Part shown: one piece after another, positions 1 through 15,686 of the stretch
Numbering within the stretch: the first letter of the stretch is position 1
Layout: each line of letters begins with the position of its first letter
Origin: a virus
Virus record (IMG/VR): IMGVR_UViG_3300047678_000247
Coordinates: 1-25,068 of that record
Strand: one strand, 5' to 3'
DNA length: 25,068 nt
The notes under the pieces: model-generated
What the model was told of the DNA's origin: nothing
The model's database searches: none
Seen by the model: only the letters and a program-made list of their open reading frames with translations
Program-made: the position numbers and the translations under genes

Positions 1-76
1 CAGAGGCGAAAAGGTCTACTTGGTGTTTGCAGGCCTTGTGCTTCCGCAGAAATGCTACGGTTATTCGCTTGCGCAT
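1..76 (-). CDS. Hendecad-repeat family protein, N-terminal fragment cut by window edge
   Basis: The first 25 codons of a family member are visible, starting at the ATG at 76 and running off the left edge. GGAGA lies a few bases upstream of the ATG. The visible residues (MRKRITVAFLRKHKAC..., then QVDLFAS) match the N-terminal domain of the genes at 100-441, 11043-11447, 11471-12091 and 13862-14401. Positions 1-127 are identical, base for base, to 11372-11498, so this locus is a recent copy of the start of the 11043-11447 gene. It follows the 100-441 gene by 23 bases, the same tandem arrangement seen at 11471/11447. Its repeat number cannot be seen. Function unknown. Confidence 0.75.
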   Translation of the reverse strand, partial: MRKRITVAFLRKHKACKHQVDLFAS

Positions 77-99
77 TGCTATCTCCTGCTGGGGCTGGG

Positions 100-441
100 C
101 TACAAACCCAGGGCATCCGCGAGGGCGGATGCCTTCACGCGCCGGTACTCGGCGTCGGCGGATGCCTTCACGCGCTCGTACTCCGCGTAGGCGGATGCCA
201 TCGCGCGATGGTACTCGGCGAGGGCGGATTCCATCACGCGCTCGTACTTCACGAGGGCGGGGCCCTCCAAGATTGTGCAAGCCAGCCAGTGGATATTGAG
301 GTAGTGCGCCTGTGCGCGGAGGATGTTGTCTCGGCTGATGTCCGCGCCCTTAGGGAAAACACGGGCGAAAAGGTCTACTTGGTCGTCGCAAGCCTCGTGC
401 TTGCGCAAAAATGCTACGGTTATGCGCTTGCGCGTTCGCAT
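100..441 (-). CDS. Hendecad-repeat family protein, 4 repeat units
   Basis: 113 residues. Residues 1-55 or so are the conserved family domain: ITVAFLRKHEAC near the N-terminus, QVDLFARVFPKGADIS next, then a segment ending in ILEGP. Four 11-residue units follow, of the pattern A-x-A-E-Y-x-R-V-x-A-S, and the protein ends in the family terminus ALADALGL. Alanine, tyrosine and valine fall at spacing 4-3-4, as expected for a hendecad coiled coil. No signal peptide or membrane segment is seen. The start is the ATG at 441 with GGAG about nine bases upstream. The N-terminal half is close to the gene at 11471-12091, and a partial paralogue follows 23 bases downstream. I know of no established function; a filamentous or oligomeric phage accessory protein is possible. 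Confidence 0.8.
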   Translation of the reverse strand: MRTRKRITVAFLRKHEACDDQVDLFARVFPKGADISRDNILRAQAHYLNIHWLACTILEGPALVKYERVMESALAEYHRAMASAYAEYERVKASADAEYRRVKASALADALGL

Positions 442-461
442 TGGTCAATACTCCGCTAAGC

Positions 462-548
462 CTATGGGCTGGGGCTGGGGCTAATACGCTTCGCCTTATT
501 GCCAGGGCCGTCGCACTGCGGGCACGCGAAGTCTTCATGCACTCTCAT
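462..548 (-). CDS. Small CxxC zinc-knuckle-like protein
   Basis: 28 codons. The ATG at 548 overlaps the TGA of the 545-811 gene (ATGA), so translation is probably coupled. The peptide begins MRVHEDFACPQCDGPGNKAK and ends in a Ser-Pro repeat that is read from the shared intergenic motif found beside the repeat-protein genes. CPQCDG is a typical half zinc-ribbon motif of tiny phage proteins. No second cysteine pair is present, so metal binding would need a dimer or a partner. It is short enough to be chance, but the coupling and the CPxC motif argue for a real gene. Confidence 0.5.
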   Translation of the reverse strand: MRVHEDFACPQCDGPGNKAKRISPSPSP

Positions 549-811
549 TGCCCACCCCCGAACCTGATCTGCTCGGCGTGGGCGATGGCGTCACGCATGG
601 CGATGCACTCCGGCGTTTCGCACCCGGCCAACTCCAAGTATCGCTCCAGCAAGGCCCGTGCGGCCTTGCAGAGCGCCGCGACGGCCTCGCTTTGCTCGCG
701 GGCGTTGGCCTCGCGCCACTTGGCGGTGAGGTCGGGCATCTTGCCGGGTCGTTGGTGCGGTCCGTCCTTCACAAACACATTCACGTCACGGGGTAATGGG
801 GTTTCGCTCAT
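545..811 (-). CDS. Hypothetical phage protein, 88 aa
   Basis: Starts at the ATG at 811 (MSETPLPRDVNVFV), preceded by AAGGA six bases upstream; the longer in-frame start at 844 lacks a comparable site. The N-terminal third is extended and rich in Pro and Gly. The rest is predicted helical, rich in Ala and Glu, and holds a cysteine pair (AGCETPEC). No membrane segment is present. Its stop overlaps the start of the 462-548 gene. It lies in the leftward early operon between the repeat proteins and the replication genes. I do not recognise the family. Confidence 0.7.
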   Translation of the reverse strand: MSETPLPRDVNVFVKDGPHQRPGKMPDLTAKWREANAREQSEAVAALCKAARALLERYLELAGCETPECIAMRDAIAHAEQIRFGGGQ

Positions 812-868
812 GGCTGATCCTTTCGCGTGGCGTGGGTCGGTCAACTCTCGGGCGTCGATTCCGGCGCG

Positions 869-887
869 GAATAGGGCGGTGTTCCTA
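869..887. promoter_or_regulatory. 19-bp dispersed inverted-repeat motif, copy 1
   Basis: GAATAGGGCGGTGTTCCTA, matching 17 of 19 bases of 12391-12409. Both copies lie in a gap between leftward genes, just before or at the stop of the upstream gene. The ends form a short imperfect inverted repeat (GGAATA/TGTTCC here; perfect GAATA/TATTC in the other copy). It could be an operator, an RNA processing site or a short transcription signal. Role inferred only from recurrence and position. Confidence 0.3.
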
Positions 888-892
888 ATCGC

Positions 893-1303
893 TCACGTCT
901 TGCTACTTGCCTTGTCGTTCATCTTCACGAGCAGTGCCACGAGGGCGACGGTTTCGGCCAGGTCCATACCGCCGAACCGGGCACTGTCGCTTTGGCCGCC
1001 GTACGCCTCGCTCTTGCGGTCGATGTGGATGCAGATCGCGTCGGCGGTCACGGTGGCGGTGAGTTTGCGGCGCGGCCAGTTCTGATCGTCGTAGTCGGAC
1101 TCCCAGCAGAGCGTGACGTGCCCGCGTTGATCGGAGATGCGGAACCAGTCGGGCCGGCGGACTTCTTTGCCGAGCGCCCCGAGGAAGCGGTAGACGGCGT
1201 TGGTGAGTTCCTTGTTGGTGTGGTGGCGTTGAACGTGGAGGTACGCGGAAACGGTGTCGCGGTAGTCCTCGTCGATCTTCCCGAAGGCGGTCGTGTGCTT
1301 CAT
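893..1303 (-). CDS. Hypothetical phage protein, 136 aa
   Basis: ATG at 1303 with AGGAG seven bases upstream. The protein begins MKHTTAFGKIDEDYRDTVSA. It has a mixed helical first half (YLHVQRHHTNKELTNAVYRF), then a likely beta segment (DWFRISDQRGHVTLCWESDY), then KLTATVTADAICIHIDRK, and a Gly/Met/Leu-rich helical C-terminus. It is soluble, with no signal peptide. The pattern could be a small HTH-plus-sheet fold, but I cannot name a family. It sits in the early operon, downstream of a 13-codon open frame (1300-1341) whose stop overlaps this start. Confidence 0.75.
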   Translation of the reverse strand: MKHTTAFGKIDEDYRDTVSAYLHVQRHHTNKELTNAVYRFLGALGKEVRRPDWFRISDQRGHVTLCWESDYDDQNWPRRKLTATVTADAICIHIDRKSEAYGGQSDSARFGGMDLAETVALVALLVKMNDKASSKT

Positions 1304-1404
1304 GCCTTGTCTCCTGGGTCGGTCATGTGGATGGCGTTCATGTACGCTTGGCCCGTGGCCTGTGTTGGCGCGGCGGTGTTACTTCTCGTACTTCGCTTTC
1401 CAGT

Positions 1405-1827
1405 TCATGGGTTCTCCTTGATGTGGCGGGCCACCCATTGGCGCATTCGCTGCCAACGCCGCTCGGGTTCTTCACGTTCGTTCCAGTCGTTCTCGTACTC
1501 AACCTCTTGCACAAGGCACTTGGCTACGTTCAGTTCGCTCGCCAGCGTCTCATTGAGTTCTTCGAGTTCACAGGGATCGTCGTGTTCGTGCGATCGGTAG
1601 TCCTTCCCGCGTGCGGCGCACACGGCCCCGATTGCGCAACAATCACCGTCGCTGGTTTGCAAGGCTCCTCGGATGAGCCGTTTTTCTGGCATGGCGTCGA
1701 GCGCGGCGGCCAGATCACGGAGGAGTTTTTGACCCCTCTTGCCTCGGATGGCCGATTTCACCATGCCACGCCAGCGCCCTAGTTGCAGAATGTCATCGTT
1801 GTCGTCGGTGTATCCGTGTCTGCTCAT
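1405..1827 (-). CDS. Conserved-type phage hypothetical protein, 140 aa
   Basis: Starts at the ATG at 1827, overlapping the stop of the 1824-2012 gene (ATGA), with AGGGA about seven bases upstream. The core reads RLIRGALQTSDGDCCAIGAVC. That resembles small phage proteins that carry a 'G-x-L-...-GD-x-C-C-x-x-G-x-x-C' signature and have no assigned activity. The C-terminal third is strongly charged and helical (ELEELNETLASELNVAKCLV, then a run rich in Glu, Arg and Trp). No membrane segment. The stop overlaps a 9-codon frame (MNWKAKYEK, 1379-1408). Family resemblance is from memory of the motif only. Confidence 0.75.
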   Translation of the reverse strand: MSRHGYTDDNDDILQLGRWRGMVKSAIRGKRGQKLLRDLAAALDAMPEKRLIRGALQTSDGDCCAIGAVCAARGKDYRSHEHDDPCELEELNETLASELNVAKCLVQEVEYENDWNEREEPERRWQRMRQWVARHIKENP

Positions 1828-2012
1828 GGCTTTTCCCTTCGGAGTGTGGCAGGCAACTTCCCGCCCGCCTTGTCGGCGGCGGCAATCAGGGCCTTGGCGA
1901 TGGCCCGCGCCTCGGCTGGGTACAGGGCCAACACGCTCACGGTCAGGCCGTGCGAAGTCTCGACCCACACGTTGCCGTCAACGGGATTCGGTCCAAGGTC
2001 GAATCGGCTCAC
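1824..2012 (-). CDS. Hypothetical phage protein, 62 aa
   Basis: Start chosen at the GTG at 2012, which overlaps the stop of the DnaC-like gene (GTGA); its own stop overlaps the next ATG (ATGA). The protein reads as a short beta-rich N-terminus (GNVWVETSHGLTVSVLALYP) followed by one alanine-rich helix (AEARAIAKALIAAADKAGGK). This layout, a sheet then an 'AxAxALxxAAxxA' helix, is common among small phage proteins that handle a masked or trimmed input, but no function is known to me. Coupled on both sides, so it is probably translated with the replication genes. Confidence 0.7.
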   Translation of the reverse strand: MSRFDLGPNPVDGNVWVETSHGLTVSVLALYPAEARAIAKALIAAADKAGGKLPATLRREKP

Positions 2013-2767
2013 AGCGGACTCCCTTCGGCCCGGTGGTTGGGCCACTTCGACAGGTCGAACACTTCGCCCGTCTCAAGCCACCGCTCCCGGATGCGGTCGT
2101 GGACCGTCCCCGCCATCGCCGCCCGCGTCAGGTTGCTGATGACGATCGTGGACACGCACGACTCGTACCGCGAGTTGAACAGACGCGAGTAAAACTGGCT
2201 GGGCTTGCTCTCCAGATCGTCGGGCTCGGGCCGTCGCTCCCACTCGTCCACCACCAGCGTCGTGTAGGCTTTCGCGTTTGCCCGCAGCCACTCGTGTTCT
2301 GAACACGTCCCCAACTTGTAGACCGCGTGGGTCCAGTCGCCATACAGACACGCGGCGGTGCGGTAGAGGCACGGCTTGCCCGTCTGCCGCGCCAGCCACG
2401 TTGCGAGCGTGGTTTTGCCGGGCCCGTAGTGCCCGATGAGGACCACGGTGCCCCGTGAGGCCAGCACCTCGGCCATGCGGGCGACCCGGGCGGGATCGTG
2501 CCATGCGGGATCGGGGTTGGCGAGGAGGAAGTTGCGGGCGCGGAGGGGGAAGTCGCCGGCGGGCAGGTAGCCGAGACGCTTGCGTTCGGCGGCGCGGCGG
2601 TCGGTTTCGGCCTGGGCGGCTTCGGCACGGTGGACGCGGTGTGTGATGGCGGCGGTGGCGGCGCGGATGACGGGCGCGAGGGTGGGGGGCTTGGCGTCGG
2701 GGCGGATGCCCTGAGCGGCGCGGATGGCCTCGACGCGGGCCGCGGCGTCCTGGGCGGTGATGGTCAC
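2009..2767 (-). CDS. DnaC-like helicase-loader ATPase
   Basis: 252 residues. Walker A GHYGPGKTT is at about residues 112-120, and Walker B LVVDE at about 171-175, followed by ERR. VISN near residue 220 suits a sensor-1 position. The N-terminal 100 residues are alanine-rich and helical, as in loaders that contact the helicase. The expected role is loading of the replicative helicase at the phage origin, with ATP. Start chosen at the GTG at 2767, with GGGAGG six bases upstream and a GTGA overlap with the DUF1376-like gene. An initiator immediately upstream of a DnaC-like ATPase is the classic replication pair of temperate phages. A DnaA-like or IstB-like ATPase is the alternative. Confidence 0.82.
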   Translation of the reverse strand: MTITAQDAAARVEAIRAAQGIRPDAKPPTLAPVIRAATAAITHRVHRAEAAQAETDRRAAERKRLGYLPAGDFPLRARNFLLANPDPAWHDPARVARMAEVLASRGTVVLIGHYGPGKTTLATWLARQTGKPCLYRTAACLYGDWTHAVYKLGTCSEHEWLRANAKAYTTLVVDEWERRPEPDDLESKPSQFYSRLFNSRYESCVSTIVISNLTRAAMAGTVHDRIRERWLETGEVFDLSKWPNHRAEGSPL

Positions 2768-3651
2768 AATGGCCTCCCTTCGGCAAAGGATTCGAGTTTG
2801 GGGCGGGCGGGCGTGCTGCGCGAGTTCGACCCCGCCCATGCCGAGTCGTCCAGTTCGTACCGCGCCTCGTCCAGCCACGTCCGCAGCATCGGCACCGAAC
2901 CGTCGGCGGTGGACCGCACCCACTGGCTGGCGGCGAACGCCTTGACCCGGCCCAGCAGCCACCGCGCCGCATCAGCCTCGCCCCAGATGCCGGTGAAACG
3001 CGGGTCGGACATCCCGGCGTTTTGCAGCCAGGTGGCGACGACTTTCGGGCCGGAGTGGCCCGGTGCCTTGGCGTTGGGGTAGGCCGCGGCGATGGCCCGT
3101 GCGGCCACGTCCCGTCGCCAGACGCCGGATTCGATCCAGTCGTGGGGAATCCCCGCCGGTGTTTCCGCACACACACCCTTCCCCCCCGTCTCGGCGGGGG
3201 GTAGGGGGGTGTCTTTTGGATTTGGTCTTCTGAGATCGTGAACGTGAATGGGGACGGGGACGGGAGGGTCGAGCGTTGCTTGAGCAATGCTTGAGCAATG
3301 CTTGAGCAATGCTTGAGCAGACTTGCCGCCGCGGCTACCCGCATCGGCCTTTTTGGCCCGAAAACGCTGTTGCTCTTCAAAGCGCCGAATCAACCACGTT
3401 TGGAACCTCCCTGACACGGGACTGCCGAGCAAGAGACGAATCCGCGCCCGCATCCTGTCCCAATCGTCGGCGCTCACCCCCGCCAGGATGGCGAGATCAG
3501 CGTCGGAATCAGGAAGGGTGCAGGGGGGCGTCTCGTTCCACGACAGGACCGAGAGGGAGAACCAAACGCCAAGTTCGGACTTCGAGAGGACAGCGATCGG
3601 GCGAGCCCAATCCTCTGGGAAAATGGTGATGTTCAGGGGTCGTTTAGCCAA
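2764..3651 (-). CDS. DUF1376-like phage replication initiator
   Basis: 295 residues. The first 95 match the DUF1376 (YdaU-type) pattern: ITIFPEDWARPIAVLSKSE..., then WFSLSVLSWNE, LPDSDADLAILAGVS and DDWDRMRARIRLLL. This is a winged-helix-like domain common in phage replication genes. A poorly conserved proline-rich linker (about 105-165) follows, then a C-terminal region with DWIESGVWRRDVAARAIAAA and a Trp-rich helical part. The start is a TTG at 3651; no downstream ATG keeps the domain intact. The linker is encoded by a GC hairpin, an AT-richer stretch and four 11-bp repeats, which may form the origin. It overlaps the loader gene by GTGA. Confidence 0.75.
   Translation of the reverse strand: MAKRPLNITIFPEDWARPIAVLSKSELGVWFSLSVLSWNETPPCTLPDSDADLAILAGVSADDWDRMRARIRLLLGSPVSGRFQTWLIRRFEEQQRFRAKKADAGSRGGKSAQALLKHCSSIAQATLDPPVPVPIHVHDLRRPNPKDTPLPPAETGGKGVCAETPAGIPHDWIESGVWRRDVAARAIAAAYPNAKAPGHSGPKVVATWLQNAGMSDPRFTGIWGEADAARWLLGRVKAFAASQWVRSTADGSVPMLRTWLDEARYELDDSAWAGSNSRSTPARPKLESFAEGRPL
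3181..3320. other. Candidate replication origin inside the initiator gene
   Basis: From left to right on the plus strand there are three parts. C- and G-runs able to form a hairpin or quadruplex lie at 3181-3210. A more AT-rich stretch lies at 3211-3258. Four near-identical 11-bp direct repeats, GCTTGAGCAAT, start at 3278, 3289, 3300 and 3311; the last is degenerate, and a weaker half copy lies at 3271. Eleven is not a multiple of three, so the encoded peptide is not repetitive, and the repeat must matter as DNA or be a recent slippage. Lambda and relatives keep iterons inside their O initiator gene. The assignment as an origin is inference. Confidence 0.45.
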
Positions 3652-3769
3652 TGTCGCCTGCCTTCACCCCCGCAGCGCAGCAAAACCGCCCGAACCCAAG
3701 GCTTGCCCATCGTTCGGAATCCCGATAGATGGCGAGGGTGCGGGCGGCTTTGTGGGGCTGTAAAGGCAT
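3644..3769 (-). CDS. Possible small protein, 41 aa
   Basis: ATG at 3769, with GGGA about seven bases before it. It runs to a TAA at 3646-3644 that overlaps the start of the initiator gene by eight bases. The peptide (MPLQPHKAARTLAIYRDSER, then a segment ending AGVKAGDIG) looks like a short helical DNA-binding-type peptide. A 12-codon frame (MGKLSPLVHRES) ends on its start (TGATG). The gap 3652-3842 holds no better candidate. Position fits the coupled gene chain, but length alone cannot exclude chance. Confidence 0.33.
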   Translation of the reverse strand: MPLQPHKAARTLAIYRDSERWASLGFGRFCCAAGVKAGDIG

Positions 3770-3842
3770 CAAGATTCCCGATGGACAAGCGGGGAGAGTT
3801 TACCCATACCAGCCCCGCCGTCAAGTCCCTACCGTGGCTGAT

Positions 3843-4163
3843 TCATGCCCCACCAGCGATGCTCATGTTCTCTGGACCGGAACCGCGACAAGGGGGCGCG
3901 GCGACGCTGGTATCTAAAACTTCCGAAGTGCTGGGGACTGGCTTCGCCTCCGGTGCTGGGCCTTCGGTGGGTGCGAACAGTGCGCGGGCGAGCCTGGACG
4001 AGGCTTCCCTGGCGATGGACGAGGCGTGCTGGAGGTTGATGGCCTCGGCGTCGGGATGCCCCATGGCGCGGCACGAGTCGGCGGCCTGGATGAGCACCAT
4101 GGCGCGCTCAAGGCGCGACTTCGCGTCCACGACGGCGTTGCGGATGTTGGAGGTACTAGTCAT
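3843..4163 (-). CDS. Hypothetical protein, 106 aa
   Basis: ATG at 4163 overlaps the stop of the methylase gene (ATGA). Residues 1-65 or so are one or two Ala-rich helices (SNIRNAVVDAKSRLERAMVL, then QAADSCRAMG and SIAREASSRLARALF). The last 40 residues are proline-, serine- and glycine-rich and probably disordered. No membrane segment. It is co-transcribed with the methylase. A 5-codon frame (MNQPR) overlaps its stop. Family not recognised. Confidence 0.7.
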   Translation of the reverse strand: MTSTSNIRNAVVDAKSRLERAMVLIQAADSCRAMGHPDAEAINLQHASSIAREASSRLARALFAPTEGPAPEAKPVPSTSEVLDTSVAAPPCRGSGPENMSIAGGA

Positions 4164-5047
4164 GATGCTCCATTCACGATCAGCAGTTCGGGTGCTTCGA
4201 CGACGCCCGCGCGCTTCGTATTGCCTTGCGCCAACGCCTTGGTGGTCATGCAGTCGTGGAAGCGCCAGCCGTCGTACAACTCGCGCACGCTCGGGTGGTC
4301 GTAGTACGACACGATGACCTGGGCGCGCTTGAAGCGGCCCGCAGCCTCGCGCAGCCGCGCGTGGTCCTCGGGCTTGAAGTCGTGCTGGTACTTCGCCCCC
4401 TTGACGACGTAGGGCGGGTCCAGATAGATCACGGTTTTCGGCTCATCTTCAATGCGGCCGATCAACTCGAACCCGTCGCGGTTCAGGATCGTCACGTTGC
4501 GCAGCCGCTCGTGCCAGTCAGGGATGGAGTTCACCGCCGACCGGAACCGCTTGGCCGCGTGCCCACCGTTGGCGGTGTATCGCACGCAGAACCCCTGGTT
4601 GTAACTCTGTGTGCCGGCGCAGCCGTTGCGGCCCAGCCATGAGCACAGGAAGTAGTCGTACGCCCGCTCCAGGTCCGGGGCATCCGGGGCCGGAGTCAGG
4701 CCCCGCGTCTTCCATCGCTCGGCGGCTTCGCGGTACAGTTGCTCGCTCATCAGCGTGCAGACCAGGCGGTCACAGAGGGTCAGGTACATCTCGCGGTGGG
4801 CGATCACCCGGGCCAGGTTGGTCACTTCGCCGTGCAGGTCGTTGATGGTCTCCATCGGGCACGGCGTCTTGTGCAGGATGACGCTGATGCCGCCCACGAA
4901 TGGTTCCCAGTAGCAGCGATGGGGCCGCATGAGCGCGACGATGCGGGGGGAGAGCGTCCGCTTGCTACCAAACCACGGGGCGATGGCGGCGATCTGGGGC
5001 ACGACCACATCGGGCGCGTCGGGTTCGGCGAAGAGTCCGGTGCTCAC
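4160..5047 (-). CDS. D12-class DNA adenine N6-methyltransferase (Dam-like)
   Basis: 295 residues. Motif I-type segment APWFGSKRTLSPRIV with YWEPFVGG following (residues 23-53) binds S-adenosylmethionine, and the catalytic DPPY lies at about 210-213 (VIYLDPPYVVKG). ETINDLHGEVTNLARVI at about 66-82 fits the conserved acidic segment of the family. The central 100-200 region corresponds to the target-recognition part. It transfers a methyl group to adenine N6 in a short DNA site that cannot be read from sequence. A lone methylase in a phage usually protects against host restriction or marks its DNA. Start chosen at the GTG at 5047, which overlaps the preceding stop (GTGA). Confidence 0.9.
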   Translation of the reverse strand: MSTGLFAEPDAPDVVVPQIAAIAPWFGSKRTLSPRIVALMRPHRCYWEPFVGGISVILHKTPCPMETINDLHGEVTNLARVIAHREMYLTLCDRLVCTLMSEQLYREAAERWKTRGLTPAPDAPDLERAYDYFLCSWLGRNGCAGTQSYNQGFCVRYTANGGHAAKRFRSAVNSIPDWHERLRNVTILNRDGFELIGRIEDEPKTVIYLDPPYVVKGAKYQHDFKPEDHARLREAAGRFKRAQVIVSYYDHPSVRELYDGWRFHDCMTTKALAQGNTKRAGVVEAPELLIVNGAS

Positions 5048-5154
5048 GTCCCCACCGCCTTTCGCAAGGCATTCCGACTCGGAAAGTTGGCGCGATACAC
5101 CGCGCACGCCTTCGCGTCGAAGTCGATCGCCTTGACGGTGCGCCAACGCCTCAT
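5044..5154 (-). CDS. 36-aa peptide resembling a C5-methyltransferase fragment
   Basis: ATG at 5154 overlaps the stop of the 5151-5474 gene (ATGA), and its stop overlaps the methylase GTG start (GTGA). The peptide contains VKAIDFDAKACAVYRANFPS. In C5-cytosine DNA methyltransferases a similar stretch follows motif I, where an acidic residue contacts the cofactor ahead of a '...YRANFP' helix end. The catalytic PCQ and ENV motifs are absent, so no activity is expected. It may be a relic of a lost methyltransferase kept as a coupling peptide. The resemblance is short and could be chance. Confidence 0.5.
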   Translation of the reverse strand: MRRWRTVKAIDFDAKACAVYRANFPSRNALRKAVGT

Positions 5155-6507: not shown

Positions 6508-7173
6508 TCAGGTGCGAGATTTGATGTGTCGAAGTTCCTCGGGCGTGAGGTCCTTGCCCAGCGTCCGCAGGGCCTGGTACGGCGCGCGGGCGATGCACTC
6601 GGCCCGCTCCTCGGGCGTGAGATCCTTGCCCAGCGTCCGCAGGGCCTGGTACGGCTCGCGGGCGATGCACTCGGCCCGCTCCTCGGGCGTGAGATCCTTG
6701 CCCAGCGTCCGCAGGGCCTGGTACGGCGCGCGGGCGACTTCATTTCTGACGACAACGTTCAATGCGACTTTCATGCTGAGTTCCTTATGCGTAAACGTGA
6801 AGTTGTTCAGAACGGGATGTCGCGCAGATATCGCTGCATGAGCGGCATCGCGCCGCTTGATGTACAGCCAGGGGTTCATCCACCACCACCAGGGGCGAGC
6901 GTCTCTGGTTCTCATAGCCGCGCCTCCACCGGCCACCTCGCGGAGTTTGAGGTTCTCGCGTTCGAGCGTGTCGTACCTTTCCACCAATCGCTCAACCACG
7001 TACGGCGCGTCGAAGTCGCCTTGCAATCCATGCAGCAGGCGAAGGTGCGACTTGATGAGGTCGAGTTCCTTCAGCGCGCCGGTCTGATTGATCGAGGTGT
7101 ACGCGGCGGCCCTCCCGCAGCACGGCGAATACAGCATGTTGGCACCGCACTCAGGGCATTCATTGGGTATCAC
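6508..7173 (-). CDS. Zinc-ribbon protein running in frame into three 24-residue repeats
   Basis: From the GTG at 7173 (AGGAG seven bases upstream) the frame is open for 221 residues. The N-terminus has a CPECG...CCGR zinc-ribbon motif (residues 5-20). A helical part (ALKELDLIKSHLRLLHGLQG, then a coiled segment VERYDTLERENLKLREV) and a tryptophan cluster (ARPWWWWMNPWLYIK) follow. A second start, the ATG at 6774, has its own AAGGA site, so 6508-6774 may be a separate 88-aa gene, MKVALNVVVR..., made of three units of APYQALRTLGKDLTPEERAE plus CIAR. A 13-codon frame (7170-7211) ends on the GTG. Whether this is one protein or two nested ones is unresolved. Confidence 0.65.
   Translation of the reverse strand: MIPNECPECGANMLYSPCCGRAAAYTSINQTGALKELDLIKSHLRLLHGLQGDFDAPYVVERLVERYDTLERENLKLREVAGGGAAMRTRDARPWWWWMNPWLYIKRRDAAHAAISARHPVLNNFTFTHKELSMKVALNVVVRNEVARAPYQALRTLGKDLTPEERAECIAREPYQALRTLGKDLTPEERAECIARAPYQALRTLGKDLTPEELRHIKSRT
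6536..6739. repeat. Three tandem 72-bp repeats within a coding region
   Basis: Copies begin at 6536, 6608 and 6680 (the last incomplete) and differ by only a few bases, including an A-to-E codon change. Each encodes 24 residues with the core PYQALRTLGKDLTPEER. Since 72 is a multiple of three, copy number can change without a frameshift. High identity points to recent duplication. Confidence 0.9.
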
Positions 7174-7220
7174 GGTTGGGCTCCTGTGATGGCGTCGGGG
7201 TCGATGGTCATGGGTTCCTT

Positions 7221-7712
7221 TCAGGATGCGGACGTGAGCAACAGGCGGGGCATCTCGCCGCGCTCGCTGATTTCCTTGAGTTGAGGGCGGAGCCATTCGC
7301 CCGTGGTCTGGCCGCTCGGCAGAAGCACGTCGGCAAGGAACTCGCGTTCAACGGTGCTGATCCGGCTGGCGCAGGCTTCCAGTTTTGCCTTGATGACAAG
7401 CGCCAGGGCACGCCACGTCGATCGACACGCCTGCTCCCAGAGTTTGTTCACCATCTCGGGCGGGTTCTCGACCCACTTCTGATACACCGTGCGATGGGTG
7501 AACCGCTTTTCACTCTTGGCGGGAAGCGGGAGGATCATCCGCACATTGAGCATGGTGCGCGTTGTCGGGTCGGTGATGCAGAAACCGATCATGGCGCGGC
7601 CCGGCTCGGTGGCGTAGGCGAAACGCTCAGCGCCGTAGCGGGCCAGCGTGCTCTCGATTTCAGCGCGGGACTTTTCGACACTAACGGATGTCTGGCTGGC
7701 GTAGATGCTCAT
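7221..7712 (-). CDS. Conserved phage/prophage protein of unknown function, 163 aa
   Basis: ATG at 7712 with AGGAG six bases upstream, inside the end of the neighbouring gene. The protein opens MSIYASQTSVSVEKSRAEIE, then TLARYGAERF, a strand segment ending NVRMILPLP, and later WEQACRSTWRALALVIKAKL and ISTVEREFLADVLLPSGQT. This order, with the invariant-looking WRALALVIKAKLE helix and EFLA..LP.G, is that of a widespread phage-associated family that has no assigned activity. It is often encoded near replication and recombination genes, as here. Length is typical. No membrane segment. Confidence 0.8.
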   Translation of the reverse strand: MSIYASQTSVSVEKSRAEIESTLARYGAERFAYATEPGRAMIGFCITDPTTRTMLNVRMILPLPAKSEKRFTHRTVYQKWVENPPEMVNKLWEQACRSTWRALALVIKAKLEACASRISTVEREFLADVLLPSGQTTGEWLRPQLKEISERGEMPRLLLTSAS

Positions 7713-7715
7713 GGG

Positions 7716-8315
7716 TCACTCCTGCGGGTAGTCGTTGTATTCGTCCGCAGCGTCCCGTTTCCGGTGGTCGGCGATCGCCTGCGCCAGCGTGCCCGCGTCG
7801 TAATCGTGCTGGAAGTGCCGCGCCGCCAACGCCAGTTCATCCGTGTCCTTCACGCGGCACTCGACTTCGTCGATGTAGTCGGCAAACTCGATCAGCCGCA
7901 TGAGCGCCGACAGCAGGCACTTCGCGTCAATGGAGTATTCCATCGCTCGCTTGTGACGGGCGGCTGGGTTCGTCGGCGCGGGCTCGATCGCTCGCGCCGC
8001 CCGACCGGCTTGGGCGTTTGCGGTACTCGCCACACGCTCAGCCAAACAGGCCAGTTTCCGCGTGCCGATCTCATCGTTGATGCCCCATTCGCGCCAGTTG
8101 GGATTGATGGGCGGGCGGTAGTGCGGGCCGATGGGCGCGGACACCCAAGCGGGCTTGGCGGGCATGGCAGCGGCGCGTTCGTTGAGCGCGGCGGCGATGA
8201 TCTCGGCGTCGGCTGGGTCGGTGACGGAGGCGATGCCGCGATTGTTATTATCGACGATAGTTGCGGGTCCGGGCATGAAATGCTGGACGCGGACGGGGTA
8301 AGTCATGTTGTTCAC
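7716..8315 (-). CDS. Hypothetical phage protein, 199 aa
   Basis: Start at the GTG at 8315 with AAGGAG eight bases upstream, overlapping the Erf-gene stop (GTGA); an ATG three codons in is the alternative. Residues 15-50 read GPATIVDNNNRGIASVTDPA then DAEIIAAALNERAAA. This beta-turn followed by an 'ADAExIAAALN' helix is frequent at the ends of small phage proteins. The middle is basic and low-complexity. The C-terminus holds a helix (CLLSALMRLIEFADYIDEVE) and a charged tail. It lies directly downstream of the recombination genes. Function unknown. Confidence 0.7.
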   Translation of the reverse strand: MNNMTYPVRVQHFMPGPATIVDNNNRGIASVTDPADAEIIAAALNERAAAMPAKPAWVSAPIGPHYRPPINPNWREWGINDEIGTRKLACLAERVASTANAQAGRAARAIEPAPTNPAARHKRAMEYSIDAKCLLSALMRLIEFADYIDEVECRVKDTDELALAARHFQHDYDAGTLAQAIADHRKRDAADEYNDYPQE

Positions 8316-9370
8316 TTGCTGCTCTCCTTCAGGTGGTCAAACTTCCCGGCGTGGAGTGCCGCCCAGGCCTTGGCCCGGCTCGGGAGCGGCACGCTCAGGT
8401 ACGACTCGTACTTGCCCGCCTTGAGCGAGCGATCGAACACGGCGGCGGCACCCTCTTTGTCCAGCCCCAGCCGGTCGCCGATCGCCTCAAGCATGGCATC
8501 CCGCCAATCGCCGGCAGACTCGAACGTGCATGGCGGTTCTGGGCAAGCCGACACCACCGGGGCCGGAGCGCTCGCAGCCGTGGGAGGCGGCTGGGTCTCG
8601 GACGGCCCCGGTAGTGCGGTTTTCTTCTCGTGCTTGGCGAGTTCAGATTCGATCACGCCGAGTTTGCCGTCAAGGATATCCGCGAAGGTGTTGGCGTCGG
8701 CGAAGCGGAGGAAGCGAGCGACCTGGGCCTCGTCGCCGGGGTAGACGGCGCGAACGCGGGCCTCGATGGCGTCGGCCTCGGCCTGGCTGATCCGCTTGCC
8801 CAGATCGCGTGCGTCACCATCAACGTCCTTGTCGGTGGCGATATTGAGCATCGAACAGAGGCAGAGGCGCTGGGCCATTGTGCGGGCACCGGCGTCAACC
8901 TGGGATGCCGAGTTGCCCGGCGGGCCGTCGCCGATGCGGTTGCCGTACTCGGTGACGACGGCATGGCCACCACGGTGGCGAAGCGTGCCGATGGCGAAGA
9001 TGCGGTTGCCGTCGTAGCGGTAGGTGAACATCACGCCGAACCCGTGACGGGCGAGAACGGGCTGGACTTCCTGCCACACGTCCTCGTAGGCGGCGAAGCG
9101 GTAGCGTTCGGAGCCGTCCTTGTTGCGCACGATGCGGTAGGCCTTGACGGGCCGGAGTTCGGATTGGAGTTGGGCGAAGGCGTCCGCGAAAGCGCGTTCG
9201 GCGTTGCGGTCCTCGACGCTGATGTAAAGTTCGGTGATCTTCTCCAGCGCCTCCACGTCGGTTTTGCCGATGCCCTTTTCGCTGAGCGAGTGGAGCATGG
9301 CGAGGATGGGGTTGGCTGAGTCGTCGCGGCGCACGAGCGGCGCGGGTTCGATCGGGGCGAGGTCGGTCAT
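8312..9370 (-). CDS. Erf-family single-strand annealing recombinase
   Basis: 352 residues. The Erf-like core covers about 30-190: ALEKITELYISVEDRNAERA, FADAFAQLQSELRPVKAYR, RYRFAAYEDVWQEVQPVLA, RHGFGVMFTYRYDGNRIF, and GDGPPGNSASQVDAGARTMA leading to QRLCLCSMLNIATDKDVDGD. These are the conserved blocks of Erf/Sak-type proteins that anneal single-stranded DNA. The extra C-terminal half (after about 200) has a proline/alanine linker and a separate helical domain (ESAGDWRDAMLEAIGDRLGL). It is longer than P22 Erf (about 200 aa). Overlaps the pentapeptide gene by ATGA and works with the YqaJ exonuclease two genes upstream. ATG at 9370. Confidence 0.88.
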   Translation of the reverse strand: MTDLAPIEPAPLVRRDDSANPILAMLHSLSEKGIGKTDVEALEKITELYISVEDRNAERAFADAFAQLQSELRPVKAYRIVRNKDGSERYRFAAYEDVWQEVQPVLARHGFGVMFTYRYDGNRIFAIGTLRHRGGHAVVTEYGNRIGDGPPGNSASQVDAGARTMAQRLCLCSMLNIATDKDVDGDARDLGKRISQAEADAIEARVRAVYPGDEAQVARFLRFADANTFADILDGKLGVIESELAKHEKKTALPGPSETQPPPTAASAPAPVVSACPEPPCTFESAGDWRDAMLEAIGDRLGLDKEGAAAVFDRSLKAGKYESYLSVPLPSRAKAWAALHAGKFDHLKESSK

Positions 9371-9834
9371 TGGGCGTTCTCCTCAGCGGCGCAGGCTCGC
9401 AGGTCGGCCAGCGCTTCGTCATTCGTCGTGTAAAAGTCCGGGATCGGTTTACCAGGTCGAGACGCGGCGTAGATCAGGACACCGGCGACCGACGAGCCAA
9501 CCCGGTCCTCAAGCAGTTTGCCCGCTTCGCCGGCCAGCGTGATGGCCCAGCCCGCTCGGCAATGCGTTGTCTCGCATGTGTGCCAACTTCGCATTTCGAG
9601 CGAGCAGCCTGCTTTTTCGATCGCCGCGAGGATGGCCGAATCAATGTTCGGCACAATCGGCACGTCGCGCAGGTCGGCACCGCGCAGGTCGGCACAGCGC
9701 AGGTTGGCACCGCGCAGGTCGGCACGTTTCGGGACGGCTCCGGCAGGATTGGGCGTGTAGCCCATCTCCACGAGCCACGCCTGATGAGGCGCGTACCAGT
9801 CGTACTTCTTGAGGTGATCGGGGATCGGCAGCAT
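9367..9834 (-). CDS. Short pentapeptide-repeat phage protein, 155 aa
   Basis: Four or five A-D/N-L-R-x pentapeptides (RADLRGANLRCADLRGADLR, residues about 37-56) sit between an N-terminal helix (DHLKKYDWYAPHQAWLVEMG) and a conserved C-terminal part. The latter has WHTCETTHCRAGWAITLAGE, then a Val/Ala helix ending VLIYAASRPG and FYTTNDEALADL. This C-terminal 'W-H-T-C-x-T-T-H-C-R-A-G-W' motif, with two Cys and two His, could bind metal and recurs in phage proteins of unknown role. The pentapeptide run is too short to be a DNA mimic like Qnr. Overlaps the exonuclease stop by TGATG and the Erf start by ATGA. Confidence 0.8.
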   Translation of the reverse strand: MLPIPDHLKKYDWYAPHQAWLVEMGYTPNPAGAVPKRADLRGANLRCADLRGADLRDVPIVPNIDSAILAAIEKAGCSLEMRSWHTCETTHCRAGWAITLAGEAGKLLEDRVGSSVAGVLIYAASRPGKPIPDFYTTNDEALADLRACAAEENAQ

Positions 9835-10499
9835 CAGAAAATCTCCTGCAAGTCGGTCGCTTCGGGCTCGGGCGTGCGAACGCGCCCGCCGTTGGCACGC
9901 TCAATCATGCCATGCATCTTGTCGATGAGTCCATTCGCGTGGGCAAAACCTGCCTCGATTAGTGCCATTTCCTCATCCACACGGGGGACAACCACTACGA
10001 GCGGCGGGAACCCGCGGCACCACGACACGAACCGCCAGCATGGCGCGTCGGCCACCCACATTCCCGCCAGCACCTGGATGATGTATTCCTTGGGCACCAC
10101 CCCGCCCGCAAGATACTTGACGTGCGCCGTTGGCTGCGGGCACTTGATCTCTAGCCCCGACTTGTCATCGAGCATCCCGTCAGGCGAGGCCCCGCATTTG
10201 CCGTCGTCGGTGAGGCACAGGCCGACGGTGCGGATATCTTGGGCAAGGTGGAGAGCGAGCCATGCGCGGGCCTCTGGCTCGACGATCTGGCCCTGCTCCA
10301 TTGACCACGACCCGCCCCGTGTGAGTTCGTGACCAAGCCAGCGTTCGGCGGCCTTCTGGGCGGCGTAGGTGATGGGCATTTCGCCCTTGCGGATGGCGAG
10401 TTCGGGCGTGAGGACGTTGGCGAGTTCTGAGGCGGTGGGGATGCCGAGGCGGGCGTGAAGCCACTCGGGCGACCCTTGCTCGTGGGGGATGGTTTTCAT
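9834..10499 (-). CDS. YqaJ-type viral exonuclease
   Basis: 221 residues, ATG at 10499. Motifs in order: QGSPEWLHARLGIPTASE (residues 8-25) typical of the YqaJ/lambda-Exo fold, MEQGQIVEPEARAW (about 67-80), catalytic Asp in GASPDGML (about 103-110) and the E-x-K pair in GLEIKCP (about 115-121). A downstream glutamine-containing segment is EYIIQVLAGMW. It should digest one strand of linear double-stranded DNA 5' to 3', feeding single strands to the Erf protein encoded two genes on. Length is usual for the family. It overlaps the genes on both sides, supporting a recombination operon. Confidence 0.9.
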   Translation of the reverse strand: MKTIPHEQGSPEWLHARLGIPTASELANVLTPELAIRKGEMPITYAAQKAAERWLGHELTRGGSWSMEQGQIVEPEARAWLALHLAQDIRTVGLCLTDDGKCGASPDGMLDDKSGLEIKCPQPTAHVKYLAGGVVPKEYIIQVLAGMWVADAPCWRFVSWCRGFPPLVVVVPRVDEEMALIEAGFAHANGLIDKMHGMIERANGGRVRTPEPEATDLQEIF

Positions 10500-10780
10500 G
10501 CTTTGCTCAGCACATTGACGTGGGCGGACTTGCCCCTGCGGGTGGCGCGGGTGTCTGCGGTGACGCGGATGAGGCCGACAAAGCGGAGCGCCCGCATCGT
10601 GGGCGTGGTGGACTGGTGGCCCCACTTGGTGATGGCGTCCACTTCGTCATCCGTGAGCCCGCGCGGTCGCTCAAGAAGTAGCGACAGCGCGCGCTGCCCC
10701 CGTTCGGAATCGGCAAGCAGCGAGTACCGCTTGGCCATCGCTTCGCTGACGCATTCCTTGCCACAGTGAGGGCACTTCAC
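10496..10780 (-). CDS. Zinc-ribbon winged-helix protein, 94 aa
   Basis: GTG at 10780 with GGAG upstream, overlapping the stop of the 10777-10980 gene (GTGA). The N-terminus MKCPHCGKEC is a zinc-binding motif. The rest reads like a compact winged helix (LLERPRGLTDDEVDAITKWG, QSTTPTMRALRFVGLIRVT, TRATRRGKSAHVNVL), a design common in phage proteins that read 'TPxxRAxxLxxxGLI'. Probable role: sequence-specific DNA binding or an NTP-independent accessory of recombination. It is coupled to the exonuclease. Confidence 0.75.
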   Translation of the reverse strand: MKCPHCGKECVSEAMAKRYSLLADSERGQRALSLLLERPRGLTDDEVDAITKWGHQSTTPTMRALRFVGLIRVTADTRATRRGKSAHVNVLSKA

Positions 10781-10980
10781 GGCTCCACCTCCATCGGCCC
10801 GGTGCATTCGTCGAAGCGTTCGGGTTCCTCGGGCTCGGCGGCCCGCACGGCGGCGTGAAGGCGTGCGGTGCCGGGGTCGTCGGGCGAGCGGCGCACACAC
10901 TGGGCGAGCCATCGTTTTTCTTCGGCCACTTTGCGGGCCCAGTGGCAACGGGCGCAGGTGCAGGTCGGTTCGTGGTTCAT
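10777..10980 (-). CDS. Cys/His-rich small protein, 67 aa
   Basis: ATG at 10980, AGGAG six bases upstream. Begins MNHEPTCTCARCHWARKVAE: C-x-C-x2-C-H, a possible single zinc knuckle. The rest is a charged helix followed by an acidic tail (PEEPERFDECTGPMEVEP). Very short and probably soluble. Its stop overlaps the next GTG. Family not recognised. Confidence 0.65.
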   Translation of the reverse strand: MNHEPTCTCARCHWARKVAEEKRWLAQCVRRSPDDPGTARLHAAVRAAEPEEPERFDECTGPMEVEP

Positions 10981-11042
10981 GGTGGGCTCCTAATCCTGGC
11001 GATGGCGGCGGCTGCGAATCCGCCCTATGGGCTGGGGCTGGG

Positions 11043-11447
11043 CTACAAACCCAAGGCATCCGCCAGGGCGGATGCCTTCGCGCGCCGGTACTCTGCGTAG
11101 GCGGGGGCCGTCACGCGCCGGTGCTCCGCCAGGGCGGATGCCTTCACGCGCTCGTACTCCGCCAGGGCGGTGGCCGTCACGCGCTGGTACTCCGCCAGGG
11201 CTGGGGCCGTCACGCGCTGGTACTCCGCCCGGGCGGATGTCGTCACGCGCCGGTACTCCGCGAGGGCGGATGCCTTCAAGATTCGTCTAGCCAGCCAATC
11301 AATATTGAGATTGCTGGTCGAGGCGGTGAGGATGTTTTCCCGGCTGATATCCGCCCCCTCATCAGGGAAAACAGAGGCGAAAAGGTCTACTTGGTGTTTG
11401 CAGGCCTTGTGCTTCCGCAGAAATGCTACGGTTATTCGCTTGCGCAT
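11043..11447 (-). CDS. Hendecad-repeat family protein, 6 repeat units
   Basis: 134 residues from the ATG at 11447 (GGAGA just upstream). The family domain is RKRITVAFLRKHKACKHQV, ASVFPDEGADISRENIL, then NIDWLARRILKAS. Six 11-residue units follow (for example ALAEYQRVTAP, ALAEYERVKAS), then the terminus ALADALGL. Positions 11372-11498 are identical to 1-127. It lies 23 bases downstream of the 11471-12091 gene, in the same orientation. After the stop comes the shared motif containing CCTATGGGCTGGG on the plus strand. Function unknown; see the family finding. Confidence 0.82.
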   Translation of the reverse strand: MRKRITVAFLRKHKACKHQVDLFASVFPDEGADISRENILTASTSNLNIDWLARRILKASALAEYRRVTTSARAEYQRVTAPALAEYQRVTATALAEYERVKASALAEHRRVTAPAYAEYRRAKASALADALGL

Positions 11448-11470
11448 TGCTATCTCCTGCTGGGGCTGGG

Positions 11471-12091
11471 CTACAAACCCAGGGCATCCGCGAGGGCGAG
11501 GGCCTTCACGCGCTTGTACTCCGCGTCGGCGGATGCCATCGCGCGATGGCACTCCGCGTAGGCTGGGGCCGTCACGCGCTTGTACTCGGCCAGGGCGGGG
11601 GCCGTCGCGCGCCGGTACTCCGCGAAGGCGGGGGCCGTCGCGCGCCGGTACTCCTCCAGGGCGGGGGATGCCGCGAAGGCGGATGCCGTCACGCGCAGGT
11701 ACTCGGCCAGGGCGGGGGCCTTCGCGCGCCGGTACTCCGCCAGGGCGGGGGCCTTCGCGCGCCGGTACTCCGCCAGGGCGGATGCCATCACGCGATGGAA
11801 CTCGGCGAGGGCGGATTCCATCACGCGCTCGTACTCCGCGTCGGTGGGGGCCGTCGCGCGCTGGTACTCCTCCAGAGCGGATGCCCTCAAGATTCTTTCA
11901 GCCAACCAATCGATATCGAGGTAGTGCGCCTGTGCGCGGAGGATGTTTTCCCGGCTGATGTCCGCGCCACCAGGGAAAACAGAGGCGAACAGGTCTACTT
12001 GGTCGTCGCACGCCTTGTGCTTGCGCAAAAATGCTACGGTTATGCGCTCGAAGGTGACATGCGACGCCTGCTTCTTCTTCTCGTCGCTCAT
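11471..12091 (-). CDS. Hendecad-repeat family protein, 11 repeat units
   Basis: 206 residues from the ATG at 12091 (AAGGA five bases upstream; ATGA overlap with the preceding gene). The first 15 residues are lysine-rich and unlike other members (MSDEKKKQASHVTFE), then ERITVAFLRKHKAC and the family domain. Eleven 11-residue units follow, six then five, with a six-residue partial unit (AFAASP) between them, and the usual end ALADALGL. The partial unit looks like an in-frame deletion or recombination scar. It is the longest member in the window. Repeat DNA is about 90% GC-rich 33-mers differing at a few positions. Confidence 0.83.
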   Translation of the reverse strand: MSDEKKKQASHVTFERITVAFLRKHKACDDQVDLFASVFPGGADISRENILRAQAHYLDIDWLAERILRASALEEYQRATAPTDAEYERVMESALAEFHRVMASALAEYRRAKAPALAEYRRAKAPALAEYLRVTASAFAASPALEEYRRATAPAFAEYRRATAPALAEYKRVTAPAYAECHRAMASADAEYKRVKALALADALGL

Positions 12092-12267
12092 GTGCTTCCT
12101 TTATGGCCGTCCGAAATGGACGACGTTTTCTGCTTCCCGTCCCGGTACCCCATCGCGTAGAAGGGTTCGCGCGGGAACCGCTCGGGCTTGCCCTCGACCG
12201 CATCACGCCACCCGAGCGTGTACGCCCGCTCCTGGCTGATGCACTCCTGCCACGATTCGGCGCTCAT
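12088..12267 (-). CDS. Small hypothetical protein, 59 aa
   Basis: Start at the ATG at 12267 with GGGAG seven bases upstream, rather than the longer in-frame start at 12366, which would cover the intergenic stretch. The peptide contains AYTLGWRDAVEGKPERFPRE then PFYAMGYRDGKQK. This 'GWRDAxxGKP...YxxGYRDG' pattern is common in tiny phage proteins. Stop overlaps the next ATG. Function unknown. Confidence 0.65.
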   Translation of the reverse strand: MSAESWQECISQERAYTLGWRDAVEGKPERFPREPFYAMGYRDGKQKTSSISDGHKGST

Positions 12268-12390
12268 GTGTTGCTCCCGTGCGGCTCCCACCGCAAATGC
12301 GCTCCCGGCCCGCTCCCAGCGGTAGGTGAGGCACCATGAGTATCGACACCCCCGCCCACAGGGCAAGCATCAATCCCGCTTTTTCGCGCC

Positions 12391-12409
12391 GAATAGGGCA
12401 GTATTCCTA
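12391..12409. promoter_or_regulatory. 19-bp dispersed inverted-repeat motif, copy 2
   Basis: GAATAGGGCAGTATTCCTA, paired with 869-887. The ends form a perfect five-base inverted repeat (GAATA/TATTC). It overlaps the stop codon (CTA on this strand) of the 12407-12637 gene and precedes the next leftward gene by about 120 bases. Confidence 0.3.
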
Positions 12410-12637
12410 GTTGACTACTCGGATGTACCCAACTGGGCCGCTCGGTGGCGGTAGGTACGGGCCGACAATCACCGAAGCGCTGGAGGCGAAAACACGCTCA
12501 AGCGCCTGCGCCACTTGCACAGCAGAATCTGGACGCGGCGTGCAGGGCGGAATCAGCCAAGTACCGTCATCCTGTATAGCCTCCAACTCCAACATCCAAT
12601 CGAGAAAATCGCGTATTCTGCGGAAGTCTTTGCTCAT
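12407..12637 (-). CDS. Hypothetical protein, 76 aa
   Basis: Start at the ATG at 12637 with GGAGG six bases upstream. Reads MSKDFRRIRDFLDWMLELEA, a proline/threonine turn (IPPCTPRPDS), then AVQVAQALERVFASSASVIV and a beta-rich end. A two-helix small soluble protein. Its leader contains the 85-bp structured repeat at 12682-12766. Family not recognised. Confidence 0.65.
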   Translation of the reverse strand: MSKDFRRIRDFLDWMLELEAIQDDGTWLIPPCTPRPDSAVQVAQALERVFASSASVIVGPYLPPPSGPVGYIRVVN

Positions 12638-12681
12638 GCGCCACCTCCAAGAAAACCGGCCCACCCGCGCGAACTGGTGAA

Positions 12682-12766
12682 CGGCTAGGGCCAGAAACCC
12701 GCACCAACCGCTGTCGCGGGTGGCCGGGTAGCCCCGCCGCCACGGGCGCGGCGGGGCAGGAAAACC
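12682..12766 (-). repeat. 85-bp structured intergenic element, copy A
   Basis: About 80 of 85 bases match 13466-13550. On the minus strand it holds a strong hairpin (GCCCCGCCGC, loop GCCCGTG, GCGGCGGGGC; ten pairs) and a second six-pair stem (ACCCGC...GCGGGT), with a further conserved stretch. It lies between the 12805-13407 gene and the start of 12407-12637, 45 bases before that start. It could be a terminator/attenuator or a structured leader RNA. There is no T-run, so a simple intrinsic terminator is not supported. Confidence 0.6.
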
Positions 12767-12804
12767 GCTAAGCCTATGGGCTGGGCTACAACGTACGCGG
12801 AGTC

Positions 12805-13407
12805 TCAGGAGCAGAGGCGGAAGGAGGGGGCGAACCGGTGGTCCCAGGAGGAGGAGTTAGCCATCACGTGGGCGAGGCCGCCGGCGCGGAGACCGGCGAG
12901 GTCGGCCTCGGCCTTGGCGATGGTGGAGGCCAGGAGTTCGGTGGCGGCGGTCTTGAACTTGGCCACAAGGGCGGGCCACTCGTCGAGTTCGGCGCCCCAG
13001 CGGGCGATGAGGACGCGGGTGGAGGCGGAGTGGAAGGAGGTGCCCGTGTTGCCGAGGAGGATGGGGTCGGTACGGACGACGGCGGGGTGCCAGACGGTGA
13101 GGTGGTTGATGCCCTGGGAGATGGCGCGGTCGGCGTATTCGAGCACGCGGAGGGGGATCGGGGAAAGGTCGTAGTCGGCGAGGGGGGTGGCCTGGGGGCA
13201 GAAGAAGGAGAAGAGGATCGCCTGCTCGCGCGTGAGGAAGGGGAAGGTGATGGGGCGGCGGTTGGGGGCGAGGAGTTTGGTCTGGCCGGCGAGGGCGAGT
13301 TTGTTGCACAGGGCTGTGCGGCCTTCGAGTTCGTCGGGGGTTTCGGTGACGAGTTCGGGCTCCTCGAAGGACTCAAACTTGGTGCCGTTGGGGAGGGTGT
13401 CAATCAT
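12805..13407 (-). CDS. Hypothetical phage protein, 200 aa
   Basis: ATG at 13407 with AGGAG eight bases upstream. Starts MIDTLPNGTKFESFEEPELV and continues TPDELEGRTALCNKLALAGQ, then FPFLTREQAILFSFFCPQAT, and ends in an alanine-rich helix (AATELLASTIAKAEADLAGL) with a variable tail. Both ends of the gene are flanked by the 85-bp structured element. The combination of a helical C-terminus and an N-terminus with many charged residues gives no clear family. Codon use is as in neighbours. Confidence 0.75.
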   Translation of the reverse strand: MIDTLPNGTKFESFEEPELVTETPDELEGRTALCNKLALAGQTKLLAPNRRPITFPFLTREQAILFSFFCPQATPLADYDLSPIPLRVLEYADRAISQGINHLTVWHPAVVRTDPILLGNTGTSFHSASTRVLIARWGAELDEWPALVAKFKTAATELLASTIAKAEADLAGLRAGGLAHVMANSSSWDHRFAPSFRLCS

Positions 13408-13465
13408 GCGGGGGCTCCTGGTGGAGTGGGGTGAGGGTGAGACCGAACCGGCGTAAGGGTTCAGT

Positions 13466-13550
13466 CGGCTAGGGCCAGAAACCCGCACCAACCGCTTTCG
13501 GGGGTGGCCGGGTAGCCCCGCCGCCACGGGCGCGGCGAGGCAGGAACACC
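13466..13550 (-). repeat. 85-bp structured intergenic element, copy B
   Basis: Same layout as 12682-12766. The main hairpin has one changed pair (GCCTCGCCGC against GCGGCGGGGC). It lies immediately after the stop of 13552-13791 and 59 bases before the start of 12805-13407. Two copies, each in the leader of a downstream gene, suggest a regulatory RNA element rather than chance. Confidence 0.6.
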
Positions 13551-13551
13551 A

Positions 13552-13791
13552 TCACGCGGCAGGCTTGCCGAGGTCAAGTTCCTTCAAGGCCGCCATGATC
13601 TGCTCTTCGGTTTCATCGCCAGGCCACTTGCCATAGACAGCAGCCAAGCCAGTGGCGGAGCGGGCCTTGATGACCTCCATTGCCGCCGCGTACGCCGTCG
13701 CGCGCTCGTACTCCGCGTCGGCGGATGCCTTCAAAATTCTGCCGGCCCGTTGGTTCAAATCTTCGGCCTCATGGTTATCTGTCTCTGACAT
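13552..13791 (-). CDS. Diverged single-unit relative of the hendecad-repeat family, 79 aa
   Basis: ATG at 13791 with GGGAG six bases upstream. The N-terminus (MSETDNHEAEDLNQRAGRIL) does not contain the ITVAFLRK domain, but RILKASADAEYERATAYAAA carries the family junction and one full 11-residue unit. The rest (VIKARSATGLAAVYGKWPGD, then DETEEQIMAALKELDLGK) is unique. It lies 70 bases downstream of the 13862-14401 gene. Likely a chimera made when part of the repeat region joined another small gene, or a heavily decayed copy. Confidence 0.7.
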   Translation of the reverse strand: MSETDNHEAEDLNQRAGRILKASADAEYERATAYAAAMEVIKARSATGLAAVYGKWPGDETEEQIMAALKELDLGKPAA

Positions 13792-13861
13792 GTTCACTCC
13801 CGCTTGTAAATCGCGTCTTTTGCCATAACCGCGACCATCCGCGGCGGCGGCTGGGGCTGGG

Positions 13862-14401
13862 CTACAAACCCAAGGCATCCGCGAGGGCGAGGGCCTTCAC
13901 GCGCTGGTACTCGGCGAGGGCGGATGTCGTCACGCGCCGGTACGCCGCGAAGGCGGGGGCCGTCACGCGCTGGTACTCGGCGTCGGCGGATGCCCTCAAG
14001 CGCTCGTACGCCGCCAGGGCGGATGTCGCCACGCGCCGGTACGACGCGAAGGCGGAGGCCTTCGCGCGCAGGTACTCCGCCAGGGCGGATGCCATCACGC
14101 GCCGGTGCTCCGCCAGGGCGGGGGCCGTCACGCGCCGGTGCTCGGCGTCGGCGGATGTCGTCACGCGCTCGTACTCGGCCAAGGCGGATGCCTTCGCGCG
14201 CTGGTACTCCTCCAGGGCGGGGCCCTCCAAGATTCTGTCCGCCAGCCGATCAATATCGAGGCCTTTTGTCGATGCGATGAGGATATTGTCTCGGCTGATG
14301 TCCGCGCCATCAGGGAAAACAGAGGCGAACAGGTCTACTTGATGTTTGCAAGCCTTGTGCCTGCGCAAAAATGCTACGGTTATTCGCTTGCACTTCGCCA
14401 T
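13862..14401 (-). CDS. Hendecad-repeat family protein, 10 repeat units
   Basis: 179 residues from the ATG at 14401 (AGGAG nine bases upstream). Family domain CKRITVAFLRRHKACKHQV, ASVFPDGADISRDNILI, GLDIDRLADRILEGP, then ten 11-residue units (for example ADAEHRRVTAP, AFASYRRVATS) and the end ALADALGL. It is the first gene of the leftward operon, so it is probably the earliest expressed member. Units are more diverged than in 11471-12091, suggesting an older copy. Function unknown. Confidence 0.83.
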   Translation of the reverse strand: MAKCKRITVAFLRRHKACKHQVDLFASVFPDGADISRDNILIASTKGLDIDRLADRILEGPALEEYQRAKASALAEYERVTTSADAEHRRVTAPALAEHRRVMASALAEYLRAKASAFASYRRVATSALAAYERLRASADAEYQRVTAPAFAAYRRVTTSALAEYQRVKALALADALGL

Positions 14402-15679: not shown

Positions 15680-15686
15680 ATTGAAC

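Follow-up and report, generated by a model that had tools for sequence, protein, structure and literature searches.

Hendecad coiled coils place hydrophobic residues at the core positions a, d, and h, with alanine favored (PMC9858780). Proteins of this kind, such as FilP and Scy, as represented by the survey of Martinez-Goikoetxea and Lupas (2023, cited in PMC11676326), provide one comparison system for the genes analyzed here. A second is phrog_18326, whose members include ORF54 of Pseudomonas phage PPpW-3, AF_046 of Pseudomonas phage AF, gp36 of Burkholderia phage Bcep176, and the virus protein vir526_00023. A description of the hendecad family reported below was not found in the literature. 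The family is real, and it is unnamed, uncharacterized, and unannotated in existing resources; the analysis singles it out as a widespread viral protein family of varying length and copy number.

The window, by which we mean the whole stretch of DNA that was analyzed, is a linear 25,068-base fragment from an IMG/VR virus record. It had been called a prophage, a label not supported by the window genes examined, among which no integrase was found. The gene copies in the window are the following.

1..84, minus strand: beginning of a fifth copy, truncated by the contig end so that just the head is seen, with an in-frame ATG-RKRITVAFLRKHKACKHQVDLFAS
100..441, minus strand: copy w1, head plus 4 units, 113 aa, with the cut fifth copy in tandem downstream
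11043..11447, minus strand: copy w2, head plus 6 units, 134 aa, with AGGAG upstream
11471..12091, minus strand: copy w3, head plus 11 units, 206 aa, in tandem with w2, with an irregular 6 residues (SAFAASPALEEYRR) after unit 6
13552..13791, minus strand: headless remnant, 79 aa, consisting of the head end (RILKA; "...RILKASADAEYERAT") and one unit, followed by a C-terminus of unrelated sequence
13862..14401, minus strand: copy w4, head plus 10 units, 179 aa, AlphaFold mean pLDDT 85

Copies w1 to w4 share a head of ~57 residues, which is followed by the unit array, and a purine-rich ribosome-binding-like site lies before most starts. Tandem Repeats Finder independently reported 33-bp arrays and their 66/99-bp multiples at every complete gene. 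The original prediction listed six loci with a shared N-terminal domain, lost in the 13552-13791 member. Four complete genes with their coordinates and counts of 4, 6, 11, and 10 units, and the headless one-unit member, were upheld; of the sixth locus the head is seen, cut at the contig end.

The consensus of the 31 window units is A(96%)-L/D/Y/F-A(87)-E(87)-Y(83)-x-R(100)-V/A-T/K/M-A(80)-S/P. R7 is invariant, and A1, A3, E4, Y5, and A10 are each present in at least 80% of units. Unit positions 1, 3, 4, 5, 7, 8, and 10 are conserved, whereas positions 2, 6, 9, and 11 are variable. When consensus units from 14 virus records were compared, between-record differences fell 165/125/374 at codon positions 1/2/3, and 66% of single-base codon differences between records were synonymous in the claimed frame. 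The third-position excess and the synonymous fraction, together with the occurrence of the same residue pattern in unrelated viruses, indicate that, as judged by sequence, the claimed frame is the coding frame. As a mirror effect, one opposite-strand frame reached 63% synonymous, and the differences among window units alone are mainly non-synonymous (0.25), so that the coding case rests on the between-record comparison and on the conserved heads.

These observations bear on whether the cassettes and units are selfish, non-adaptive repeats, spread by recombination or slippage in neutral accessory genes of little function. The occurrence of paralogues, the truncated headless copies in the window and in record L022, the dN/dS values near or above 1 between recent paralogous heads (the L021 pairs), and the multiple identical units in L043 would all fit such an origin. 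We nevertheless consider it unlikely, because A1, A3, E4, Y5, R7, and A10 are retained across unrelated viruses with an excess of third-position change, several of the older head pairs have dN/dS values of 0.2-0.5, and heads and start sites are intact in all four complete window copies.

The 11-residue period is exact, with 4-16 units per gene and 271 units tabulated. Y5, V8, and A1 form a conserved hydrophobic core, 3-4-4 apart, with a small residue (Ala) in the core. To this extent the predicted hendecad spacing holds. However, in each of the five arrays tested the hydrophobic moment at 131° (the 130.9° harmonic) exceeded that at 98°, the hendecad angle, and proline is common at unit position 11 (32% in the window, 41% in the other units). 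The moment at 98.2° exceeded that of shuffled sequences in arrays of at least 10 units. At 98.2° per residue, arithmetic places positions 9, 2, and 6 at 65, 98, and 131°, on one contiguous side of the helix. The clustering of these variable positions fits an exposed or partner-facing surface; taken alone, it cannot tell a binding face apart from simple exposure to solvent.

An eleven-residue period is also found in the amphipathic 11-mers with which perilipins, apolipoproteins, and synuclein bind membrane or lipid surfaces. The aromatic residues at unit positions 2 and 5 would suit such binding, as would weak matches to the Pfam models Perilipin_2 and Apolipoprotein. Both models, however, scored far short of their curated cut-offs, alanine dominates the hydrophobic face, and the units carry almost no net charge; binding to membrane or lipid surfaces is accordingly rated as highly improbable.

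The structure of w4 was predicted with AlphaFold as a monomer, using 18 family sequences (mean pLDDT 85). The model contains four short head helices and two antiparallel tail helices spanning residues 60-116 and 121-176. The pLDDT is >90 over most of the tail and 74-77 at the turn (residues 117-120). The expected helical character is predicted for both head and tail. The expected rod with a length scaling to unit number is not supported, since the 10-unit tail is predicted to fold back on itself. The turn coincides with the site of the irregular proline-containing insertion in w3, which makes a tail hairpin plausible for the modeled protein. Spurious bends in AlphaFold models of long coiled coils have been reported (PMC11676326), and so the w4 model establishes neither a rod nor a hairpin. 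A Foldseek search with the predicted structure gave no match below E 0.001.

Stepwise protein-derived scans of viral contigs detected head-plus-tail genes in about 30 virus records. Together with the four complete window genes, these records confirm the proposed hendecad-repeat gene family. Two scans covering 84,980 bacterial and archaeal genomes detected no relatives, which is weak evidence of absence given the strict peptide patterns used. The heads are 50-60 residues long with the signature L...AC..Q...F......W...LL, and at least three types are found in front of this kind of tail; three are given here.

Type A head: AC..QV.LF...FG.SVE.T..LC...A..F.W.WAA..LL, of which the window heads are a branch
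Type B head: ACREALKWQ.GKTLRETWD.C.RGDWLEWLL
Type C head: TTLN.IR...PC..GW.KLL...NGLDDALWCLR

Profile-profile comparison matched the window head to the type A heads with 97% probability (E 1e-11). The alignment of type A with type C heads is full-length, with a probability of only 53%, and type B heads have no profile similarity to type C and no link to the other types, so a common origin of all the heads is not established. An AlphaFold model of a type C member had a pLDDT of 67, too poor for head comparison. Type C heads match phrog_18326 (L027, E 8e-11; also L025 and L057). The tail occurs in two dialects, AxAEYxRVxAP and AxKAYxEAxAP, and in L062 a head 38-44% identical to the window heads is carried on the second of these. 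Several heads thus share one type of tail, and among them is phrog_18326, an orphan family known from cultured phages.

A phage making a set of rods of different lengths with one head had been thought unusual. Instead, about ten virus records carry 2-5 copies each, and the multi-copy state is therefore a general property of the family. The proposed comparison of copy number across related genomes bore this out, with at least two copies in 9 of the 24 records searched whole and, in L060, tandem paralogues with 9, 16, 15, and 7 units. Unit number also differs between close relatives. Records L012 and L039 have 10 and 5 units and are 96.7% identical over 1,188 bp, and L048 and L049 differ by exactly 66 bp (two units) in the array, with flanks 99.1-99.7% identical on both sides; these differences come from short-read metagenome assemblies, which can collapse repeats. 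Because the near-identical L048 and L049 are exactly two units apart, natural in-frame changes of unit number appear to occur, in agreement with the in-frame change of a 33-bp unit that had been predicted.

Window bases 1-127 repeat the sequence at 11372-11498 exactly, over 127 bases. An assembler run with k=127 leaves an overlap of exactly 127 bases at a graph branch. The contig most likely stops at an assembly-graph branch caused by the hendecad-gene repeat, and the true copy number is then unseen. The same 127-base end overlap is present in a second contig, and in 8 of 24 records the contig end falls within 150 bases of a copy, compared with 0.7 expected. The repeat genes thus explain breaks of virus contigs at these sites, and copy and unit numbers for the family in short-read virus catalogues are unreliable.

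Other repeats were noted in the same records. At 3277-3319 the window has a perfect 11-bp tandem repeat (TGCTTGAGCAA, 3.9 copies) within an ORF at 2764-3651 on the minus strand. Since 11 is not a multiple of three, a change in copy number would shift the frame of this ORF, making an on/off switch possible. The gene at 6508-7296 (minus strand) encodes a hypothetical protein with three near-identical 24-residue repeats (EPYQALRTLGKDLTPEERAECIAR) at its C-terminus (72-bp DNA unit, 97% matches), a second in-frame repeat system in this virus. Pentapeptide-repeat proteins (phrog_31265-like) lie near hendecad genes in two viruses (window 9367-9834, minus strand; L022 7248-7808), and the L010 contig encodes an 18-residue repeat protein (ASGCTALTELKADAADYI).

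The genes on which the functional argument draws are the following.

8312..9370, minus strand: ERF-type single-strand annealing protein (Pfam PF04404, E 1e-10; phrog_155)
9834..10625, minus strand: YqaJ-type recombination exonuclease (PF09588, E 6e-18)
19215..21050, minus strand: T7-like terminase large subunit (phrog_38, E 3e-56)

A DnaC-like ATPase and a D12 methylase are also found around the window arrays. The neighbors in other records include primases, helicases, exonucleases, and resolvases, and in named phages the type C head gene lies between repressor, primase, and recombination genes. The window terminase is ~30% identical to T7-like and autographivirus terminases, and the family is carried by viruses with quite different terminases. 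The association with replication, recombination, and methylation genes, combined with the differing terminases, argues for an early, non-virion accessory role. A search via the ERF gene found no close relatives of the window virus. An IS1-family transposase adjoins w4 (14783-15688, minus strand); its closest plasmid relatives are alphaproteobacterial (50-55% identity), a hint from sequence that the host may be too.

Helical segments often recur in phage tail proteins and in internal virion proteins, and the hendecad proteins could instead be virion or tail rods serving as structural spacers of set lengths. The weak Foldseek matches to viral tape-measure and internal virion proteins lean in this direction, all at E above 0.001. 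A virion role is still very unlikely: the window hendecad genes are small and are surrounded by genes for replication and recombination, at a distance from those for the terminase, tail fiber, and internal virion proteins; family members occur in viruses with different packaging genes; and near-identical viruses differ in unit number.

Our preferred reading, to which we assign a probability of about one-half, is that the hendecad family comprises early, non-structural accessory proteins whose unit and copy numbers are changed by recombination and whose helical tails present the heads and a variable face to a host protein. Unit and paralogue number would change by homologous recombination or strand annealing between repeats, and the ERF and YqaJ proteins of the phage itself could take part in unit gain and loss. 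The tails would bundle as helices, in a hairpin or an oligomer, with unit positions 2, 6, and 9 as the variable face. A host protein may be the target, bound through head or tail, and the purpose would most likely be interference with, or adaptation to, some host function, defense for example. A more elaborate version seems very unlikely to us; it would make the family an evolvable phage binding kit, with interchangeable heads, recombination-tunable tails, and several copies per genome, in which unit number and the variable face (2, 6, 9) are reshuffled to track host targets.

Searches of described families gave little to set beside this reading. No Pfam, NCBIfam, or PADLOC model passed its cut-off for window or type A members, and the PADLOC anti-phage defense models gave no significant match. 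Neither head nor whole protein had a functional match in PDB, Pfam, NCBIfam, or PADLOC. Several candidate matches were rejected. Those in Corynebacterium phages reflected the in-frame reading of an 11-bp DNA repeat (TATGGGCGCAC) of no relation; in L011 (Corynebacterium phage Kimchi1738) this repeat forms a 15-copy array that, with a 19-copy TATAAA array, occupies 4081-4244 and 4747-4861 and is unrelated to the hendecad family. A gene of an Octadecabacter virus, with the annotation ribonuclease E, gave a weak match, and plasmid DivIVA/pentapeptide proteins matched as well; these matches lay mainly over repeats. An IgA1 protease match was confined to the tail region and was taken as compositional. 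An "Imm-5-like" identity of Ala-rich phage relatives was checked and not confirmed.

ATP synthase subunit b gave a weak profile match to the first half of the tail (E 0.017); the window family has a different head and no membrane anchor, and no homology is claimed. The phrog_18326 proteins resemble the hendecad family in the type C head, in size, in early-region placement, and in having a long Ala-rich helical tail. Their own tail is nevertheless different, consisting of RLFAVWCARQVEHLMTD... and Ala-rich AAARDAAWAA repeats rather than AEYxRV units. No window member has an N-terminal domain profile match to phrog_18326, and the match of the window head to the type C profile is suggestive only (13%). 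With the hendecad coiled-coil proteins the family shares the 11-residue period, the 3-4-4 spacing of hydrophobic residues, and the Ala-rich core (PMC9858780). Scy was a recurrent sub-threshold NCBIfam match, scoring no more than ~28 bits where the cut-off is 1040, and no Pfam DivIVA match was found. Compared with FilP and Scy, the window family is phage-encoded, is mostly 110-240 aa in length, has an unrelated head and frequent proline at unit position 11, and is present as several paralogues per genome.
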